Assembly: GCA_029778105.1 (NCBI GenBank)
Contig: JAKOQZ010000054.1
Coordinates: 1 to 34,080 of the forward strand
Reading direction: 5' to 3'
Source of the DNA: Pseudomonadota bacterium
GTDB lineage: Bacteria; Pseudomonadota; Alphaproteobacteria; Micropepsales; Micropepsaceae
Length of the DNA: 34,080 nucleotides
In this document: positions 2,118-23,712 of the stretch, piece after piece
Layout of the letters: each line of letters begins with the position of its first letter
Position numbering within the stretch: the stretch's first letter is position 1
The notes under the pieces: model-generated
The model's database searches: none
What the model saw: the letters and a program-made list of their open reading frames with translations, nothing else
Told to the model about the DNA's origin: nothing
Translations under genes and position numbers: made by a program

Positions 2118-2407
2118 CCGGCACGCCGACACGCCCCGGAAACTGGCGTTGTCGCAGCTCGCGACTGCCCGCATCGCCTGTCTGGCCGGGGGGCGCTGAA
2201 CGCCCGGGAATCCGCATTTCCCAGGCGGCCGGCACCGTCGTCGTGACAAAATCGCAACAACCGCAGTGCAAGAATGCTCTGCGTAGTCGGCACGTTGGGA
2301 ACCGACCCCCGCGCATGCTAATTAGTTGAGGAAGTCGGATCGGGGCGCGTCCGTCCGCCTGACGTCTATTCGATTACGGCCGATGCGGCCGGATTTAAGA
2401 GGATCAA

Positions 2408-3391
2408 ATGAAGCTCAAGAATATCATGCTGGCTGGCGCCGCTGCGGTCGCCCTGACCGGCATCGCTGCCGCCGACACGCCGGATGGCGTCTATCTGGGT
2501 CTCGCCGGCGGCGCGAACTGGGTCGAAGACGATTTCTTCTTCGGCAAGTTCGACATGCAGACCGGCTACTATGTCGGCGGCACGGTCGGCTACAAGTTCG
2601 ACTTCAACCTGCGCACCGAGTTCGAACTCGGCTACCGCAGCAACGACTACGACTTCTTCCGCGGCAAGTCGGGCGAAGTCACGTCGCTGTCGACGATGGT
2701 GAACGTGCTCTATGACTTCGACATCGGCGAAGGCATGGCTCTCTCGCTCGGCGGCGGCCTCGGCCTCGCCCGCATCGGCGCGGAAGACGATTTCGGCTTC
2801 GCCGACGGTCGCGACTTCGTGTTCGCCTATCAGGGCATCGCCGAGTTCGAAGCCATGGTCGACGACAATGTCGGCATCTTCGTCGGCTACAACTACTTCG
2901 TCGCCGATAACGTCGATATGGATTTCGCGAACGGCGGCTCTTTCGGCACCGATTACACCGCCCACACGGCGAAGATCGGCGTGAAGTATCACTTCTATGA
3001 AGCCCCGGTCGTCGCGCCGGAGCCCCCGCCGCCGCCGCCGCCGGTGGCCGCCAAGACGTTCATCGTCTTCTTCAACTTCGACAAGTCGGATCTGACCCCG
3101 GAAGCCCAGGCCGTCGTGGCCGAGGCCGCCGCCGCCTTCAAGTCGACCGGCTCGGTCTCCATCGCCGTCGTCGGCCACACCGACACCGTCGGCTCGGCCG
3201 CCTACAACCTGCCGCTGTCGCAGCGCCGCGCTGCCTCGGTGAAGGCCGGCCTGGTCGCCAACGGCGTCCCGGGCGACGTGATCTCGACCGACGGCAAGGG
3301 CTTCTCCGAGCCGCTGGTCGCCACCGGCCCCGGCGTCAAGGAACCCCAGAACCGCCGCGCCACCATCGACCTGACCGGCTCGGGCATGTAA
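2408..3391 (+). CDS. OmpA-family outer-membrane protein (N-terminal beta-barrel, Pro linker, C-terminal OmpA domain)
   Basis: Signal peptide MKLKNIMLAGAAAVALTGIAAA; barrel-like alternating strands; PEPPPPPPPVAAK linker; FFNFDKSDLTPEAQAVV...GHTDTVGSAAYNLPLSQRRAASVKAGL OmpA C-terminal motif. Confidence 0.95.
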   Translation: MKLKNIMLAGAAAVALTGIAAADTPDGVYLGLAGGANWVEDDFFFGKFDMQTGYYVGGTVGYKFDFNLRTEFELGYRSNDYDFFRGKSGEVTSLSTMVNVLYDFDIGEGMALSLGGGLGLARIGAEDDFGFADGRDFVFAYQGIAEFEAMVDDNVGIFVGYNYFVADNVDMDFANGGSFGTDYTAHTAKIGVKYHFYEAPVVAPEPPPPPPPVAAKTFIVFFNFDKSDLTPEAQAVVAEAAAAFKSTGSVSIAVVGHTDTVGSAAYNLPLSQRRAASVKAGLVANGVPGDVISTDGKGFSEPLVATGPGVKEPQNRRATIDLTGSGM

Positions 3392-3415
3392 TCGACCGAA
3401 CCCGGTTGAAACGCG

Positions 3416-3445
3416 AAGGGCCGCCCATCGGGCGGCCCTTTTGCT
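3416..3445 (+). terminator. Rho-independent terminator after OmpA-family gene
   Basis: GGGCCGCCC-ATC-GGGCGGCCC followed by TTTTGCTTT. Confidence 0.85.
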
Positions 3446-3446
3446 T

Positions 3447-3800
3447 TCAGCCCTGCTGCGCCAGCCACACGGCTGCAAGCGCCGTCGCCTCCGGCACGTG
3501 CCAGCCGTCCAGAACCACGAATGCGCCGTGCAATGCGTCGCTTGCGACGGCCTCGTCATAGCTCCCGCCGTTCAGCTTGGCTTTCAGTTTGGCCTCCACA
3601 TCGCCCAGCTCCTGAAGCGCCGGCGCCTGCCCCAGCGCCTTCAGCGCCACGGCATCCTCGCGCTTCGCCAGCGCCTGCAGCGGGTCTTCCGGCCACAGCC
3701 GCACGGCCGCGACGCCGGCGAGCGCCAGCCCCATCGCGCCGAACGTGCGGCGGGTGATGCGGGCCGAGCGGCGCTGCCCCTCGTTCATGCCGTCCCTCAT
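3447..3800 (-). CDS. Small protein with Tat-like signal, translationally coupled to GMC oxidoreductase
   Basis: MRDGMNEGQRRSARITRRTFGAMGLALAGVAAV...: RRTF twin-arginine motif plus hydrophobic stretch; ATG overlaps the GMC stop (ATGA at 3797-3800). The longer ORF in the track extends back into the GMC gene. Confidence 0.7.
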   Translation of the reverse strand: MRDGMNEGQRRSARITRRTFGAMGLALAGVAAVRLWPEDPLQALAKREDAVALKALGQAPALQELGDVEAKLKAKLNGGSYDEAVASDALHGAFVVLDGWHVPEATALAAVWLAQQG

Positions 3801-5311
3801 GCCCGCGCCTCGCGCTTCAGCGTTTCGGCGAGGCGCAACGCCAGCGCCACCAGCGTCAGCGTCGGATTGGCCGCGCCGGGCGTCGTGTAGAGCGAGGAAC
3901 CCGCGATCCACAGATTGGCCATCCCGTGCACGCGCGCATCGCCATCGCACACCGATGTCGCGGCGTCCGCGCCCATGCGCGTCGTGCCCATATTATGATG
4001 GCCCCAGTTGGTCTCGGCCGGCCAGCGCTCGCGCGCATCCGGCGCGATCCGCACCATCCCGGCGCCGCTGGCGCTGAGCGCCCGCCCCAGATCGGCGAGG
4101 TTGGCAAGATAGTCTTCCAGATCCCGGTCGTTCAGCTTCCAGTCGACTTTCAACCGCCGCACGCCATGGCGATCGCGGGCGTCCGTCAGCGTCACCCGGC
4201 TCTCGGGATCGGGCCGCGTCTCCAGTCCGGCATTCAGCATGTGCACGCGCGGCGTCCAGCCGGGCTTGCCCAGCGCCGCCAGCGCGCTCGCGGTCTCCGA
4301 CTGCCCGAACCAGCGCGTCTCCCAGCGATCGAACGCGCCGTTGCTGAACGACGGACCGCCCGGTTCGATGGTCGCAAGGCACGAGAGCCGCCCCTTGGCG
4401 CGGCGATAGTCGTCGCGCGGCTGAAAGGCGAGACGATAGCGCCGCCCGCCCGCCGGGATGTCGTTCGTCGCGAAGACGTCGCCGGCTTCCGGGCCGAACG
4501 ACAGCACCGCCGCATAGCCGATGAGAATGGGATGGTCCGCGAAATAGCGGCCCACCTGCCCCGTCGCATTGCCAAGCCCGCCCGCCACCTGGGCGTCGGC
4601 GTTCAGCAGCATCTGCGCGTTGGAAAGGCCGCCGCACGCCAGCACCGCATGGCGGACGCTCATGCTCAGCGGCTTGCCCCCGTCGCGCGCAATCGTCAGC
4701 GCCGTCACGCTCTTGGCGTCGTCGCTGACGCGGATATCGCTCACCGTCGCGTTCAGGAAGCAGCGCGTGTCGCTCTTGTCGATGAGGTCGCGATAGACCT
4801 CGCCCATCCGGATCGGCGGCGAGAATTCGAACAGAACCGGCTCGATATCGCTGCTGCGCGGGATGGGCAGCTTCACGCCCGCCAGCGCCGCGACGCCTTC
4901 GCTGTCGTCGTAACGCGCCGGCCCCAGATGCAGCACCTCCTGCGCGCGCCTGTAGAACGGCTCCAGCTCGCTCTTGGTGATCGGCCAGCCCGACAGCTTC
5001 ACGAAGTCGCGCGGCTCGAAATCGACGGCGTCCAGCTCGCGGCACCAGCCGCCCCAATGCCCGGTCGTGCCGCCGAAATAGCGCAGCCTCACGCTCTCGG
5101 GCGTCGCATAGGTCTGCGGCCCCAGTTCCCCCGCCGCGAGGTCCTGCGCCTCTTCCGACCATTCCAGGCCGCCGGATTCCAGCAGCGCGACGTTCAGCCC
5201 CGCGCCTTCCAGCGCGATGGCGAGGCTCAATCCCGCCGCGCCCGCGCCGACAATGGCGATGTCGGCGTCCAGCTTTTCGTCGTCAGGCAGTGACCGCGCA
5301 TCGATGAACAT
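3797..5311 (-). CDS. GMC-family FAD-dependent oxidoreductase
   Basis: ADIAIVGAGAAGLSLAIALEGAGLNVALLESGG FAD-binding motif; FGGTTGHWGGW; C-terminal HHNMGTTRMG...LWIAGSSLYTTPGAANPTLTLVALALRLAE GMC C-terminal motif. Confidence 0.95.
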   Translation of the reverse strand: MFIDARSLPDDEKLDADIAIVGAGAAGLSLAIALEGAGLNVALLESGGLEWSEEAQDLAAGELGPQTYATPESVRLRYFGGTTGHWGGWCRELDAVDFEPRDFVKLSGWPITKSELEPFYRRAQEVLHLGPARYDDSEGVAALAGVKLPIPRSSDIEPVLFEFSPPIRMGEVYRDLIDKSDTRCFLNATVSDIRVSDDAKSVTALTIARDGGKPLSMSVRHAVLACGGLSNAQMLLNADAQVAGGLGNATGQVGRYFADHPILIGYAAVLSFGPEAGDVFATNDIPAGGRRYRLAFQPRDDYRRAKGRLSCLATIEPGGPSFSNGAFDRWETRWFGQSETASALAALGKPGWTPRVHMLNAGLETRPDPESRVTLTDARDRHGVRRLKVDWKLNDRDLEDYLANLADLGRALSASGAGMVRIAPDARERWPAETNWGHHNMGTTRMGADAATSVCDGDARVHGMANLWIAGSSLYTTPGAANPTLTLVALALRLAETLKREARA

Positions 5312-5352: not shown

Positions 5353-6012
5353 TCAGGCGGCTTCGACCCCGGTGCCGATCTGGCAGGCGACGCCCGTGCC
5401 GCCGAGGCCGCAATAGCCGCCCGGGTTCTTGTCCAGATACTGCTGGTGATAATCCTCGGCGTAGTAGAAATCGCCGAGCGGCAGGATTTCGGTGGTGATC
5501 GCGTCGAAGCCCTTGGCCCTCAGCGCGGCGTCATAGGCCGCGCGCGCGGCTTCCGCCTCCGCCTTCTGCGCCTCGTTCGCGACATAGATGCCCGAGCGGT
5601 ACTGCGTCCCGATATCGCCGCCCTGACGCATGCCCTGCGTCGGATCGTGATTCTCGAAGAACACCTTCAGCAGCTGACCATAGGAAATCTGCCTGGGGTC
5701 GAACGCCACCAGCACGACCTCGTTATGGCCGGTGCCGCCGGTGCAGACCTCCTCATAGGTCGGGTTCGGGGTGTAGCCGGCGCTGTAGCCGACGGCGGTC
5801 GAATAGACGCCGGGCTGCTGCCAGAACTTGCGCTCGGCGCCCCAGAAACAGCCGAGGCCGAACACGGCGGTCTCGATGCCGGCGGGCCAGGGGCCTTTCA
5901 AGGGATGGCCAAGGACGGTGTGAGCGTCGGCGACACGCATCTGGCGGTCGGTGCGGCCGGGCAGCGCCTCGCCGGGGGCGGGCATTTCAAGCTTCTTGCG
6001 CTTGGCGAACAT
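5353..6012 (-). CDS. msrA: Peptide-methionine (S)-S-oxide reductase MsrA
   Basis: [52 protein letters not shown]...[23 protein letters not shown]; canonical GCFWG catalytic motif. Confidence 0.97.
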
Positions 6013-8943: not shown

Positions 8944-9375
8944 ATGAGTTCCGTCGTCACCGGCGCGATCATCGGCGCGTCGATCGGTCTGATCTACAGC
9001 GGCTATATCCTGCTGAGCGCGGGCAAGAAAAAGGGCGACAAATACCTGAAGGAGATGACGCGGCGCGTCACGCCGCTGGAGGCGCCGATGCCGCCCGCTG
9101 CCGTCTTCGCCGCGCTGAGGAACGGCATCATCGATCACCCCGCCACGCTGGAGGCCGCAGATGAGGCCGCCACGCGGCTGGTCTTCACCGACAAGGCTTC
9201 GATGACGACGTTCGGCTTCTTCTATCCCATCCACATCACGCCCTCCGCGCAGGGCGCGCATCTCGACATCGGCATCGTCAGCCGCGGCAACCAGTGGGGG
9301 CCGCTGGTGACCAAGGCGCACAGAATTTTCGTGGAAGGCGTTTGCAGAACGCTTGGCCTGCCCGAACCGTCATGA
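8944..9375 (+). CDS. Hypothetical protein with N-terminal TM segment
   Basis: 143-aa ORF starting MSSVVTGAIIGASIGLIYSGYILLSAGKKKGDKYLKEM; follows the GTPase by 19 nt and overlaps the next gene by ATGA. Confidence 0.75.
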   Translation: MSSVVTGAIIGASIGLIYSGYILLSAGKKKGDKYLKEMTRRVTPLEAPMPPAAVFAALRNGIIDHPATLEAADEAATRLVFTDKASMTTFGFFYPIHITPSAQGAHLDIGIVSRGNQWGPLVTKAHRIFVEGVCRTLGLPEPS

Positions 9376-10367
9376 GCTCAGCCGCCGCGCCTGCGCATTT
9401 CCTCAGCACCGATGCCTTCGTCACCGCCGCGCAGTTCAGCGGCGGCCTGGCGGCGCTGGCGCTCGGCGACGGTTCGGTGCGGCTCGTCGCCGCCGACGGC
9501 GCGGAGATATCCGTCGCCGCGCATGACGGCTCGGCGATGGCGCTCGCCGCCACTGCCGACGGCTTCGTCTCGACCGGCGATGACGGCCGCGTCGTCGCCA
9601 TCGCCGCAAACGGCGACACGCGCGAGCTGTTCCGCGCCAAGGGCAAGTGGATCGAGCATGTCGCCTTCAGCGCCGCCTCCGGCGCGCTCGCCTTCGCGGG
9701 CGGCAAGGAGGCCTTCGTCATCCTGAAGCCGGGCGCGGAGCCCCGCCGCCTCGCCCACACGTCCAGCGTGATGGGCCTCGCCTTCGACCCCAAGGGCAAG
9801 CGCCTCGTCACCGCGCATTATAACGGCGTCAGCCTGTGGTGGCCCGGCGCGGAGGCCCCCAGCGCGACCTTCTTGGAATGGAAGGGCTCGCATACCGGCG
9901 TGGTGTGGCACCCGGGCGGCGATTTCATCGTCACCTCCATGCAGGAGAACGCGCTGCACGGCTGGCGCCTCTCCGACAAACAGCACATGCGCATGGCCGG
10001 CTATCCCGCCAAGCCGAAAAGTCTCGCCTTCTTCGCCAAGGGCAAATGGCTCGCAACCTCCGGCGCAGAGTCCGTCGTCTGCTGGCCCTTCGACGGCAAG
10101 GGCCCGATGGGCAAGAGCGCCCGCGAAGTCGGGCCGACGGGCTCGATCTGCACCGTGCTGGCGCCCCACCCCTCGCGCGACCTGATCGCCTCCGGCCACG
10201 CCGACGGCTCGATCTGGATCACGAGGTTCGAAACCGACCAGACAGCCAATGTCCGCGCCCCTGCGGGCGAAGCCGTCAGCGCCCTCGCCTGGCGCGACGA
10301 CGGCCACCGCCTCGCCTTCGGCTGCGAAGACGGCGCGGCAGGTGTGCTGAACTTTGAGCCGGCTTGA
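9372..10367 (+). CDS. WD40-repeat beta-propeller protein (cytoplasmic)
   Basis: Repeated blades e.g. VMGLAFDPKGKRLVTAHYNGVSLWWP, TGVVWHPGGDFIVTSMQENALHGWRL, VSALAWRDDGHRLAFGCEDGAAGVL; ATG at 9372 overlaps upstream stop (ATGA); no signal peptide. Track ORF start (9294) is upstream of the likely start. Confidence 0.88.
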   Translation: MSSAAAPAHFLSTDAFVTAAQFSGGLAALALGDGSVRLVAADGAEISVAAHDGSAMALAATADGFVSTGDDGRVVAIAANGDTRELFRAKGKWIEHVAFSAASGALAFAGGKEAFVILKPGAEPRRLAHTSSVMGLAFDPKGKRLVTAHYNGVSLWWPGAEAPSATFLEWKGSHTGVVWHPGGDFIVTSMQENALHGWRLSDKQHMRMAGYPAKPKSLAFFAKGKWLATSGAESVVCWPFDGKGPMGKSAREVGPTGSICTVLAPHPSRDLIASGHADGSIWITRFETDQTANVRAPAGEAVSALAWRDDGHRLAFGCEDGAAGVLNFEPA

Positions 10368-10416: not shown

Positions 10417-10914
10417 ATGCGCCTCACATGGAAAAGACGAAACTTCGCTTTGCGGGTGGTGCTCTACTTCCTGACCATCACAGTCTTCTGTGCTTTGGTG
10501 CAACAGATCACAGGTCTTGGAATACGAGGTATTCGAGGGAAAGCCGTACTCGCAGTCGTCGCGTTAATCACGCTTTTCGCCCTGTGGTCAATACGTCGTA
10601 AGGCGCGCGCCGGGCTTCTGCGGGTCGGAGGGTTGTATCTCCGGTTTGCGATTGTGGTTGTCATCGGCGCGCTTGCGACGAGCGTTCTATTCTGGACTCT
10701 GTATGCGACCGTTTGGGCTGGTGAGTTCGACCCCAGAGCCATCTTCTGGGGCTTCGTCGCCGCCACCAAGTCAGCAGCAGTCGTCATCCCAGCAGCACTC
10801 GTGTTGTCTCTGGTTCTGGCTACGCTCACCCGGACGATCCTACTGACGTGGGCTATGCTTGATCCTGATCCGTCGACATCGAAGGTGTCGCCCCCGGCCC
10901 CGCCCGAACCGTAA
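10417..10914 (+). CDS. Hypothetical multi-TM membrane protein in AT-richer segment
   Basis: 165-aa ORF with about four hydrophobic segments (VVLYFLTITVFCALV, AVLAVVALITLFALW, FAIVVVIGALATSVLFWTLYATVWA, VVIPAALVLSLVLATL); C-terminus overlaps the convergent HxlR gene. Confidence 0.65.
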   Translation: MRLTWKRRNFALRVVLYFLTITVFCALVQQITGLGIRGIRGKAVLAVVALITLFALWSIRRKARAGLLRVGGLYLRFAIVVVIGALATSVLFWTLYATVWAGEFDPRAIFWGFVAATKSAAVVIPAALVLSLVLATLTRTILLTWAMLDPDPSTSKVSPPAPPEP

Positions 10915-19698: not shown

Positions 19699-20288
19699 GC
19701 GCTGATGCAGCCGTCAAACGGCGACGCCAGCCGCCCCGCCCGGGGCGCAAGGCGAAGCCGGGCGCAACGCCCGCCGATGTCGCTGCGATGATCCGGGTGG
19801 ATCACGCGGGCGAATACGGCGCCGTGCGCATCTATGCCGGCCAGCTGGCCGTGCTGGGCGTCAGCCCGGCGACGGCCCGCTCGGCCGAGCTGGTGCGCCA
19901 CATGGCGGCCCAGGAAGACCACCATCTCGAAACCTTCGACCGCCTGCTCAGCCAGCGCGACGTACGCCCGACGGCCTTGGCGCCGGTCTGGCACGCCGCC
20001 GGATTTGCGCTGGGGGCGGTGACCGCGCTCATGGGTGAAAAGGCCGCCATGGCCTGCACCGAGGCGGTCGAGGAGGTGATCGACGATCACTATGCCCGCC
20101 AGCAGGACAAGCTGAAGGGGCGCGACCCCGAGCTTGAAGACGTCGTTGCCCGTTTCCGTGCCGAGGAAATCGAACATCGCGATACGGCGCGGGCGGAGGG
20201 GGCCAAAGAGGCTCCCGCTTATCCCATCCTCACAGGCCTGGTTAAGGCCGGCTGCCGCCTCGCGATAAGGCTCAGCGAGAGGATCTGA
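19695..20288 (+). CDS. coq7: Demethoxyubiquinone hydroxylase Coq7 family
   Basis: MIRVDHAGEYGAVRIYAGQL, AAQEDHHLETF, CTEAVEEVIDDHY, FRAEEIEHRDTA diiron ligands; overlaps dsbB by ATGA. Confidence 0.95.
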   Translation: MSADAAVKRRRQPPRPGRKAKPGATPADVAAMIRVDHAGEYGAVRIYAGQLAVLGVSPATARSAELVRHMAAQEDHHLETFDRLLSQRDVRPTALAPVWHAAGFALGAVTALMGEKAAMACTEAVEEVIDDHYARQQDKLKGRDPELEDVVARFRAEEIEHRDTARAEGAKEAPAYPILTGLVKAGCRLAIRLSERI

Positions 20289-20938
20289 TGGCTGCCCTAT
20301 CAATGCAGGCCCGGCGGCGCGAAGCCTTCGCGCCTCGCAAGGCCGCGCGCGCCGAGCTTGGGCCTCTCGCCCAGCTCCTCACCGACGCCTTCATGGACGA
20401 TCCCGTCCTGCAATGGACGCTGCGCGAGGGCCGCGCCTTCCCCACCGCGCTGCGCCGCTATTTCGATTTCGCGCTCGCCGAACAATGCGTGGCCAGCGAT
20501 CTCATGTACGTCTCCGGCGCCGACATGCGCGCCACCGCCATCTGGCTGCCGCCATCCGATCTCGGCGTTCTCGCCACCCCGCCGCGCGAGATGCTGCGCC
20601 TCATTCCCAAATTCCTGCCCATCCTTGGCATTTCGCGCCTGCACCGCGCCATGTCGCTCGCCATGGCGATGGATGCCGAACATCCGCACGAGCCCCACTG
20701 GTATCTCTATTTCCTCGGCGTGCCGCCCGCCGAACAGGGCAAGGGTCTCGGCTCGGCGATGATGGAGGCGACGCTCCCCATGGTCGATGCCGAGCGCCTG
20801 CCCGCCTATCTCGACAATTCCAACGCGCGCAACATTCCGCTCTACGAACGCTACGGCTTCCGCGTGATCAGCGAATACCGCGCCCGCGAAGACGCCCCGC
20901 CCATCTGGGGCATGTGGCGCGATGCGCGCTTGATCTGA
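20288..20938 (+). CDS. GNAT-family N-acetyltransferase (copy 1)
   Basis: LADAF-type N-terminus LTDAFMDDPVLQWTL; HWYLYFLGVPPAEQGKGLGSAMMEATLPMVDAERLPAYLDNSNARNIPLYERYGFRVISEY; 1-nt overlap with coq7 (TGATG). Confidence 0.92.
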   Translation: MAALSMQARRREAFAPRKAARAELGPLAQLLTDAFMDDPVLQWTLREGRAFPTALRRYFDFALAEQCVASDLMYVSGADMRATAIWLPPSDLGVLATPPREMLRLIPKFLPILGISRLHRAMSLAMAMDAEHPHEPHWYLYFLGVPPAEQGKGLGSAMMEATLPMVDAERLPAYLDNSNARNIPLYERYGFRVISEYRAREDAPPIWGMWRDARLI

Positions 20939-20966: not shown

Positions 20967-21617
20967 ATGGACCCCGAACAGGCCGCCAGAGCCCGCACCC
21001 TCGCCGCCGCGCCGATCAAGGCCGGCGCCGCCGACATCCCCCGCCTGAAGGCGCTCCTCGCCGACGCCTTCCGCGACGATCCCTGCCTGCAATGGACCTT
21101 CAGGTCCGGGGCGGGCTTTCTGCCGGCGCTCGGGAAATATTTCGACTTCGCGCTCGCCAGCCAGTGCCTCCAGCACGACGCGATGTTCATGAGCGCCGAC
21201 GGCAACGCCGCCGCCGTGTGGCTGCCGCCCGCGGGCCTCAAGGCGCTCTCGCTGCCGCCGACGCAGATGCTGCGCATGCTGCCGCGCCTCATCTCGATGA
21301 CCGGCTTGGCGCGCATGACCCGCGCCATCGCAACCGGCGATGCGATGGAAAAGCACCATCCGCCGCAGCCGCCGCACTGGTACCTCTTCTTCATCGGCGT
21401 GCCCTCGCATGCGCGTGGGTTGGGCCTTGGCTCGTCCATGCTGGAGGCGACGCTCAAACACGTCGACGCCGAGGCGATGCCCGCCTATCTCGACAACTCG
21501 AATCCGAAGAACACCCGCCTCTACGAGCGCCACGGCTTCCGCGTGGTCAGCGAATACCGCGCCCGCAAGGACGCCCCGCCATTCTGGGGCATGTGGCGCG
21601 ATGCGGTGAAAAACTAG
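20967..21617 (+). CDS. GNAT-family N-acetyltransferase (copy 2, tandem paralogue)
   Basis: LLADAFRDDPCLQWTFRSG...HWYLFFIGVPSHARGLGLGSSMLEATLKHVDAEAMPAYLDNSNPKNTRLYERHGFRVVSEYRARKDAPPFWGMWRDA; collinear with copy 1. Confidence 0.92.
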   Translation: MDPEQAARARTLAAAPIKAGAADIPRLKALLADAFRDDPCLQWTFRSGAGFLPALGKYFDFALASQCLQHDAMFMSADGNAAAVWLPPAGLKALSLPPTQMLRMLPRLISMTGLARMTRAIATGDAMEKHHPPQPPHWYLFFIGVPSHARGLGLGSSMLEATLKHVDAEAMPAYLDNSNPKNTRLYERHGFRVVSEYRARKDAPPFWGMWRDAVKN

Positions 21618-21773: not shown

Positions 21774-22151
21774 TCACGCCATCCGGTGCATCGCGCAGAT
21801 CTTGTTGCCGTCGGGGTCGCGCAGATAGGCGAGATACAGTTTGCCCGCCGCACCCGCGCGCACGCCCGGCGGCTCTTCGATGGCGGTACCGCCGGCTTCG
21901 ACGCCCGCCTTGTGCCAGGCGTCGGCCTGCTCGGGCGAAGCCGCCGCAAAGCCGATCGTGCCGCCATTGGCGAACGTCGCCGGCTTGCCGTCGATGGGCT
22001 TCGACACCGAGAACACGCCCGTCTTTGAGATGTAGAAAATGCGGTGGCCGTCGACGATGGCCGGGCCGATGCCCAGCGTGCCGAGCAGCTTGTCGTAGAA
22101 CACCTTGGCCTTATCGAGATCGTTGGTCCCGATCATGATGTGCGAAAACAT
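21774..22151 (-). CDS. VOC-family (glyoxalase/bleomycin-resistance fold) protein
   Basis: MFSHIMIGTNDLDKAKVFYDKLLGTLGIGPAI...YLAYLRDPDGNKICAMHR. Confidence 0.93.
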   Translation of the reverse strand: MFSHIMIGTNDLDKAKVFYDKLLGTLGIGPAIVDGHRIFYISKTGVFSVSKPIDGKPATFANGGTIGFAAASPEQADAWHKAGVEAGGTAIEEPPGVRAGAAGKLYLAYLRDPDGNKICAMHRMA

Positions 22152-22217
22152 CTGAACTTCTCCCTCCCGGCTGCGCCGGCGTTTTGATGCCGGGTGTATA
22201 GCCGGAAAGAGGCTCAG

Positions 22218-22231
22218 GGCTCCAGTTCGCT
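22218..22231. repeat. Left direct repeat GGCTCCAGTTCGCT (remnant of HNH gene 3' end)
   Basis: Identical to 23141-23154; reverse strand AGC GAA CTG GAG CCC TGA encodes SELEP-stop. Confidence 0.75.
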
Positions 22232-22371
22232 AGCATGAGGCAACCAGGAGGAATTCTACGCCTCAGCCAGTTGTCGCAGACGTCCCTCTTGCATGAATAG
22301 AATTCTTTGCCAAAAACGACATGCAGACCGGCGACAAATCGGATCAGTTCCAAATGCTTGGGAGTGACAAA

Positions 22372-23136
22372 ATGGTTTCGATGAGAATCTCTCTAGCAGT
22401 CGTCACGTGCTTAGTAAGCCTTCCGGCCGCCGGTTGCGGCAAGCAGCAAGATGCGGCGATACCCGCAGACTCAATAATTGTTAAGCGCCAAGATTTGGAC
22501 TTGCTCCGCGCAGATCAGGCAGTGTTTCTCGCTCTCAAACAATCGCTCTCTGCGTGCGTTGAAGCCGAGCCCAAGACTGTGGAGTGCTTTGTCTCCGTAG
22601 TGCAAGGCTCAGGAATTGCGGTCGCAACCGCAGCAAACGTGTCTGAAGAACCGCTCCCTGCTGCGCCCGCCGAACCCACGGCGACCCCCACGGTGCCTCC
22701 AGAGCCGACGCCGCCGCCTAGTGCTTGGGTTTACAGCGAGACCAAAGATGAAATGAGCGGCAAGACCACGAAGCTCGCTTGCGTCCTGTCCACGACTGAA
22801 GTCAGTTTCGACTTCCCTTACGGCTCGCAATACGCGCGCCTGTGCCTTCGCGACCACCCGAAGTACGGAAAAGATGTCTATGTCGTATTCGACAAGGCGC
22901 AGTTTCTTTGCGGCTACGATGGATGCCGAGCGCGCGTCAAATTCGGCGAGAAGTCGCCGGTTACGTTCACCGGCAACGACGCCGCCGATCATTCCACGAA
23001 CATACTGTTCTTATCGCCATTCAACAAATTTTTCGCCGGCGTCAAATCGGCTGAAACGACCTTAATCGAAGCGCAATTTTATCAGGAGGGCGAGCGCCAG
23101 ATAAAATTTCCAACGGCCGGTCTTGTTTGGAAGTGA
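22372..23136 (+). CDS. Putative lipoprotein with Pro/Thr-rich linker and C-terminal globular domain, in a compositionally atypical segment
   Basis: MVSMRISLAVVTCLVSLPAAGCGKQ lipobox; APAEPTATPTVPPEPTPPPSAWVY linker; GGAG RBS before 22372. Noticeably AT-richer than flanks. Confidence 0.75.
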   Translation: MVSMRISLAVVTCLVSLPAAGCGKQQDAAIPADSIIVKRQDLDLLRADQAVFLALKQSLSACVEAEPKTVECFVSVVQGSGIAVATAANVSEEPLPAAPAEPTATPTVPPEPTPPPSAWVYSETKDEMSGKTTKLACVLSTTEVSFDFPYGSQYARLCLRDHPKYGKDVYVVFDKAQFLCGYDGCRARVKFGEKSPVTFTGNDAADHSTNILFLSPFNKFFAGVKSAETTLIEAQFYQEGERQIKFPTAGLVWK

Positions 23137-23712
23137 CTACGGCTCCAGTTCGCTGTCCCAGTAGAGATAGTCGCGCCAGCTTTCGTGAAGATAGTTCGGC
23201 GGGAAGGCGCGGCCGTTCTTCTGCAGGTCCTGGATCGACGGGCGCACCGGCTTGTGCGCCGGCCACATGCCGCATTGATGCGTCAGCCGCCCGCCCTTCA
23301 AAAGGTTACAGGGCGAGCAGGCCGCGACGATGTTCTCCCATGTCGTGCGCCCGCCGCGCGACCGCGGCACCACATGGTCGAAGGTCAGATCGCGCTTGTC
23401 GCCGCAATACTGGCACTGGAAGCGGTCGCGCAGAAACACGTTGAACCGCGTGAAGGCGGGGGTGCGCGCCGGCTTCACATACTCCTTCAGGCACACGACC
23501 GAGGGCAGCTGGAAATCCATGCCCGGCGAGCGCACGAAGCGGTCGTAATGGCTGACGATGGTCACGCGGTCCAGGAACACGGCCTTCACCGTGTCCTGCC
23601 AGGACCAAAGCGACAGAGGGAAGTAGGAGAGCGGCCGATAATCGGCGTTCAGGACAAGAGCGGGACACGCGTCGGGCGCGCGCTCAGCGGCGTGCACGAC
23701 ACGCCTCTTCAA
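23137..23712 (-). CDS. HNH endonuclease family protein
   Basis: RFQCQYCGDKRDLTFDHVVPRSRGGRTTWENIVAACSPCNLLKGGR: HNH with CxxC pairs. Confidence 0.95.
   Translation of the reverse strand: MKRRVVHAAERAPDACPALVLNADYRPLSYFPLSLWSWQDTVKAVFLDRVTIVSHYDRFVRSPGMDFQLPSVVCLKEYVKPARTPAFTRFNVFLRDRFQCQYCGDKRDLTFDHVVPRSRGGRTTWENIVAACSPCNLLKGGRLTHQCGMWPAHKPVRPSIQDLQKNGRAFPPNYLHESWRDYLYWDSELEP
23141..23154. repeat. Right direct repeat GGCTCCAGTTCGCT (3' end of HNH gene)
   Basis: Identical to 22218-22231; forms codons SELEP of the HNH protein. Confidence 0.75.

Follow-up and report, generated by a model that had tools for sequence, protein, structure and literature searches.

Tyrosine recombinases insert genomic islands and prophages at gene 3' ends, and in the classical att layout the coding end at this place is regenerated and accompanied by a short direct repeat. 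Casposons also insert at gene ends, where they leave target duplications of about 14 bp. In the minimal mobile element of Neisseria, an interval flanked by conserved neighbours holds a different single gene from one related genome to the next. Insertion with long target duplication has been described for restriction-modification genes of H. pylori (Nobusato et al. 2000, as related in PMC1643837, PMC3031569 and PMC4978471). Capture of foreign DNA by one-sided homology (homology-facilitated illegitimate recombination, HFIR) has been recorded in E. coli during conjugation, where most events of this type duplicate part of the anchor gene (PMC3240628); in transformable species, recipient DNA is mostly deleted and the junction shows a microhomology of 3-10 bp (PMC3240628 and references therein). 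The same kind of route has been used to explain the displaced 3' ends in the T6SS immunity arrays of V. cholerae (PMC5361080).

The locus analysed here lies within a stretch of 34,080 nucleotides, referred to as the window, of a 3.17-Mb alphaproteobacterial draft genome in 291 contigs (G000). Its features are collected in Table 1. For comparison, we used 96 genomes of the family, the same set being returned by family-level and order-level searches; the finding itself is limited to one draft genome per species.

Table 1. Features of the window discussed in the text, with the basis for each assignment.
Feature	Position	Strand	Basis
WD40-like gene without insert; the G004 ortholog bears the second case	9369..10367	+	ortholog comparison
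VOC/glyoxalase-like gene, neighbour of hnh in the empty layout	21774..22151	-	Pfam Glyoxalase 1.1e-8; G004 layout
Probable displaced hnh terminus AGC GAA CTG GAG CCC TGA (SELEP-stop)	22214..22231	-	sequence pattern
Distal copy of the 14-bp repeat, probable displaced original hnh end	22218..22231	-	exact match; SELEP-stop together with 22214-22217
AT-rich insert, 909 bp without the repeat copies; no integrase, transposase or terminal inverted repeats	22232..23140	.	composition; repeat scan
254-aa lipoprotein-like gene, convergent to hnh, stops abutting	22372..23136	+	ORF; homologs; lipobox-like LPAAGC
Conserved C-terminal domain, predicted beta-rich, IalB-like fold	22705..23133	+	alignment A3; AF2 pLDDT 90.1; Foldseek 3dtd
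HNH endonuclease gene (hnh, host), intact, end SELEP CCG TAG	23137..23712	-	Pfam HNH 9.4e-15
Proximal copy of the 14-bp repeat, inside the intact hnh end	23141..23154	-	exact match

The end of hnh and the segment behind it

The first-pass annotation had described a 14-bp direct repeat, GGCTCCAGTTCGCT, around an AT-richer segment of about 0.9 kb with one lipoprotein ORF, and had read an hnh C-terminus out of both copies. The repeat is indeed exact at both places, with no third exact copy in the window; the sole copy with one mismatch, at 4959, lies within a GMC-oxidoreductase-like ORF, where it encodes an internal 'SELEP'. Read on the minus strand, the right copy belongs to the end of hnh itself, AGC GAA CTG GAG CCG TAG, and the left copy to AGC GAA CTG GAG CCC TGA, both giving SELEP followed by an in-frame stop. 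Beyond the 14 bp, the two copies diverge on either side.

Exact 14-bp direct repeats with a spacing of 300-2500 bp are not rare in the DNA of relatives, where they occur about 3.4 times per 34 kb, and the repeat alone is therefore weak evidence; what is remarkable is its coincidence with a gene end. That frequency, and the fragmentation of the draft into 291 contigs, would fit a chance repeat or an assembly artefact. However, an in-frame end with its stop in both copies is unique among the 96 genomes: two neighbouring sites with the search pattern for a SELEP-stop gene end, AGYGARYTSGARCCNTRR, occur in the window's genome only (1/96), and a second copy of hnh's own end, with at most one mismatch, was found in none of 80 HNH loci of relatives, over up to 18 kb of downstream DNA. 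Also against chance or artefact are the native spacer length, the extreme composition and the second, independent case, for which a natural empty site exists (all given below), and we regard this explanation as very improbable.

By its composition, the segment between the copies is foreign. Its GC content is 0.548, for a genome mean of 0.668 (sd 0.024, 791 sampled windows), and the comparison of GC and k-mers suggested in the first-pass annotation shows that none of the 791 windows has so low a GC content or departs as far in its trinucleotides. The same is seen in GC3, with 0.63 for the insert ORF versus 0.86 for HNH and 0.88 for VOC. The segment holds a single lipoprotein-like ORF, with a further in-frame ATG upstream of the listed start (22321/22372-23136), whose stop abuts that of the intact hnh. 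As had been noticed from the letters alone, integrase and transposase genes are absent from it, and the repeat scan revealed no inverted pair at its ends.

An hnh ortholog was found in 91 of the 96 family genomes. The VOC-HNH junction, which had been proposed as the place to look for an empty site, shows the layout without insert and with an unduplicated target in the congener G004, where hnh and VOC are 65 nt apart, versus 62 nt from the displaced stop to VOC here. The displaced copy ends in CCC TGA G, as found also in the congener G001; the intact hnh ends in CCG TAG. Given this near-native spacer and this ending, the distal copy is most simply read as the old hnh terminus. Together with the foreign composition and the second case, these observations give good support to the reading first proposed, namely, an insertion at the hnh 3' end that left hnh intact with a regenerated end and displaced the original terminus. 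Without the insert, the empty site would read ...CTGGGAC AGCGAACTGGAGCC CTGAGCCTC...

Judged from the layouts in congeners, the DNA behind hnh is fluid in gene content within the genus: the interval holds the lipoprotein gene in G000, a 148-aa secreted ORF in G002 and G003, nothing in G004 and unrelated DNA in G001. The 148-aa ORF lies in the hnh-VOC interval of G002 (L002, 2110-2553) and behind hnh in G003 (L004), with 56% identity between the two, and has no other occurrence in the 96 family genomes. The idea that different cargo genes might be lodged between hnh and a SELEP-stop remnant elsewhere found no counterpart among the 96 genomes, and the hnh end was rejected as a general attachment hotspot, there being no second end near hnh in the other family genomes. 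Elsewhere in the window, tandem paralogous genes for GNAT acetyltransferases are located at 20288-20938 and 20967-21617.

The cargo protein has no Pfam or NCBIfam match above cut-off. Homolog searches showed that its C-terminal domain of about 140 aa is shared with Pseudomonas, Trinickia, Bacteroidota, Plesiocystis, Pseudomonas phages and several plasmids, the family thus being present in temperate phages and plasmids as well. The domain follows the pattern WxY...DxM...FPY...GQF...IEAxFYQxG (window 22705-23133, L121-L137), and its N-terminal context is variable: across phyla and in Pseudomonas phages, it is attached to a lipoprotein signal, a zinc ribbon or a membrane segment. In several homolog-bearing genomes the gene is AT-rich relative to its surroundings. 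Since the structural model is confident (pLDDT 90) and the best solved neighbours are chains of Bartonella henselae IalB (invasion-associated locus B; Foldseek 3dtd, E 4e-3, prob 1.00, TM 0.54, rmsd 5.5), the domain is likely an IalB-like exported domain, and the cargo would represent an unnamed, patchily distributed family of predicted IalB-like exported proteins.

The lipoprotein gene as an intrinsically mobile cassette was discarded, as its 17 relatives in genome contigs come without gene-end repeats. A 17-bp repeat in Rufibacter (L134) was likewise set aside as a comparable case, since it adjoins REP-like palindromes. In the same locus of Rufibacter sp. XAAS-G3-1, beside the homolog of the lipoprotein domain, a putative two-gene module resembling an Xre/RES toxin-antitoxin pair was recognised by eye (about 2167-3560), between two intergenic repeats of about 69 bp that are 91% identical. 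A short AT-rich ORF for a putative GIY-YIG endonuclease, also assigned by eye, lies in G091 (L058, 3964-4410), flanked on both sides by a REP-like palindromic repeat.

A second locus and the scans for further ones

A blind, gene-independent scan for direct repeats of at least 13 bp, placed 350-2500 bp apart and enclosing DNA whose GC is at least 0.08 below that of the flanks, returned only two loci from 1.015 Mb of the genus, namely, hnh in G000 and a WD40-like gene in G004. Applied to 1.156 Mb from other genera and from lipoprotein loci, it gave no gene-end case. A scan for displaced gene ends, covering 2.17 Mb, produced 25 hits versus 4 in reversed controls; once tandem paralogues, shadow frames and repeated elements were removed (for example L037, L083, L146, L149, L165, L174, L178 and L179), the hnh and WD40 cases were left. 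Any estimate of frequency is based on about 1.0 Mb of genus DNA.

The G004 locus (L040, contig C8), which came up in the repeat scan of relatives, carries a 31-bp repeat with one mismatch, at 9961-9991 and 10658-10688. Both copies encode the end of the WD40-like gene, VLNFEPANV and the stop, and between them is an AT-rich segment of 666 bp (GC 0.587 vs 0.690) with one ORF of 187/193 aa, convergent to the host gene and predicted to be exported from its signal-peptide-like start. A natural empty site is provided by the complete genome of G003 (L167, about 5625-5665), in which the stop codons of the WD40-like gene and of its HxlR-like neighbour overlap (CCTAGG) and no DNA intervenes. The distal 31-bp copy has CCG, as in G003, and the proximal copy has CCC. 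On these comparisons, the locus is an independent second case of the same architecture. Since a sister species bears the same scar at another gene, this may be a way in which single genes are acquired repeatedly without an integrase.

With both loci at hand, a target-site duplication left by a DNA transposon, a miniature transposon or a casposon-like element is strongly disfavoured, to the point of being hardly credible. The size of the duplication and its position at a gene end do resemble casposons; however, terminal inverted repeats, a transposase and Cas1 are lacking, and the duplication differs in length between the cases, 14 versus 31 bp.

Integration by a site-specific recombinase acting in trans deserves more room. 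According to this alternative, the insert would be a tiny non-autonomous element, or the remnant of a decayed island or prophage, mobilised by a tyrosine-type recombinase, the 14-bp repeat would be the att core, and the element would carry the copy of the gene end. In its favour are the direct repeat and the restored coding end at the 3' terminus of a gene, the 3' location of both cases, and the presence of the cargo family in temperate phages and plasmids. Both repeats contain GTTCGC at an equal offset from their proximal edge, a weak point, for there are two cases and the match could be chance. Against this, neither insert has an integrase, and with 909 and 666 bp each holds a single gene; the hnh end, which is empty in relatives, is never reused in the 96 genomes; the 14- and 31-bp repeats share no evident common core; and a search of the junction patterns against IMG/VR viral contigs gave no match. 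We consider it somewhat unlikely. An hnh-like end is present in four viral contigs.

Routes of acquisition

The first-pass annotation had suggested mobilisation in trans or by an undescribed route. The premise that the segment holds no recombinase stands, but nothing marks the segment as a mobile element by itself, and a recombinase may be dispensable, because one-sided-homology capture, which is a described process, gives the same scar. We give an even chance to the reading that hnh acquired a foreign single-gene segment at its 3' end, with a short target duplication of variable length, by such an HFIR-like route, the likeliest one. Incoming DNA would have carried an hnh end followed by the lipoprotein gene in convergent orientation; a crossover of this donor DNA would have occurred inside the resident hnh, and its other end would have been joined illegitimately just within the resident hnh end. 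The hnh retained by the cell would be complete and would end in the donor-type CCG TAG; of the old gene, the final codons and the stop (CCC TGA) would be left past the insert as SELEP-stop. Since the donor would bring its own copy of the host gene, a working end would be supplied automatically and the old one stranded, which fits both cases.

The unequal duplication lengths (14 vs 31) and the lack of a recombinase and of inverted repeats are points for this HFIR-like route. On the other side, a donor layout, in which the lipoprotein gene lies natively beside hnh with no displaced end, was seen in 0 of the 96 genomes; neither hnh nor the WD40-like gene shows a divergent donor tract; and there are two cases only. 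Moreover, short duplications at gene ends in both cases would be disfavoured if the junction fell at random in the anchor gene.

The lack of a donor tract in hnh would be accommodated by template switching or end joining, by which hnh takes up foreign DNA, through copying or ligation, while it is being replicated or while a break is being repaired, with synthesis restarting 14 nt upstream (31 nt in G004). The donor then needs no homology to the host gene, and variable duplications arise with neither a recombinase nor inverted repeats. However, the hnh case requires that the insert supply an in-frame stop right after CC, which would happen by chance in 3 of 64 instances, and the fact that the duplications span the gene end in both cases is left unexplained. 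This makes such an origin rather improbable in our view.

It is tempting to speculate about a broader alternative, namely, a recurrent and undescribed route in this genus by which AT-rich genes for exported proteins are placed, one at a time, exactly at the 3' termini of chromosomal genes, in convergent orientation and with the host's last codons and stop regenerated. This could be brought about by a recombinase that acts in trans and recognises the ends of genes, or by one-sided recombination biased towards them. We offer it tentatively and hold it to be unlikely.

Comparison with known systems

The arrival of single accessory genes without a mobile element is seldom visible. Here, displaced last codons and a stop form a scar that marks the insertion point, its direction and the original end. 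Since this scar can be searched for automatically, as a copy of a gene end past an AT-rich single gene, the 'orphan gene gained by unknown means' would become a class of events that can be counted, and sister strains could then tell recombination from site-specific integration.

The two loci resemble, each in part, several of the systems with which we opened. First, they share with islands and prophages of tyrosine recombinases the location at a gene end, the regenerated coding end and the short direct repeat, but they differ in having no integrase, a size below 1 kb, a single gene, and a site that is not reused in relatives. Second, gene content behind hnh differs among related genomes as in the minimal mobile element, whose two-sided homology exchange, however, predicts no displaced copy of a gene end. 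Third, one-sided homology of the HFIR type would give the structure observed, and most of the E. coli events duplicate part of the anchor gene (PMC3240628). In transformable species, by contrast, such events mostly delete recipient DNA and show 3-10 bp of microhomology. Fourth, as in the T6SS immunity arrays, incoming DNA anchored in a conserved gene would push the resident 3' part downstream as a remnant; in those arrays this concerns whole immunity genes or large pieces of effectors (PMC5361080), whereas here 4-9 codons and a stop are displaced, behind a housekeeping-type gene.

Finally, both loci compare closely with insertion with long or variable target duplication, as far as the accounts cited above portray it. 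As there, they have no recombinase or transposase of their own, they are flanked by direct target duplications of variable length (14 bp; 31 bp with one mismatch), and the insertion is recognised from a relative whose empty site is unduplicated. For the WD40-like gene this relative is G003, and for hnh, as far as the layout goes, it is G004. Each insert has one ORF. In contrast to the H. pylori cases as presented in those accounts, the cargo is a gene for an exported protein rather than for restriction-modification, and the duplications are short and fall on host coding ends, so that the host C-terminus is kept. On sequence grounds, the two loci may thus be regarded as a variant of insertion with long target duplication that differs in its cargo, in the short length of the duplication and in its position at a coding end.
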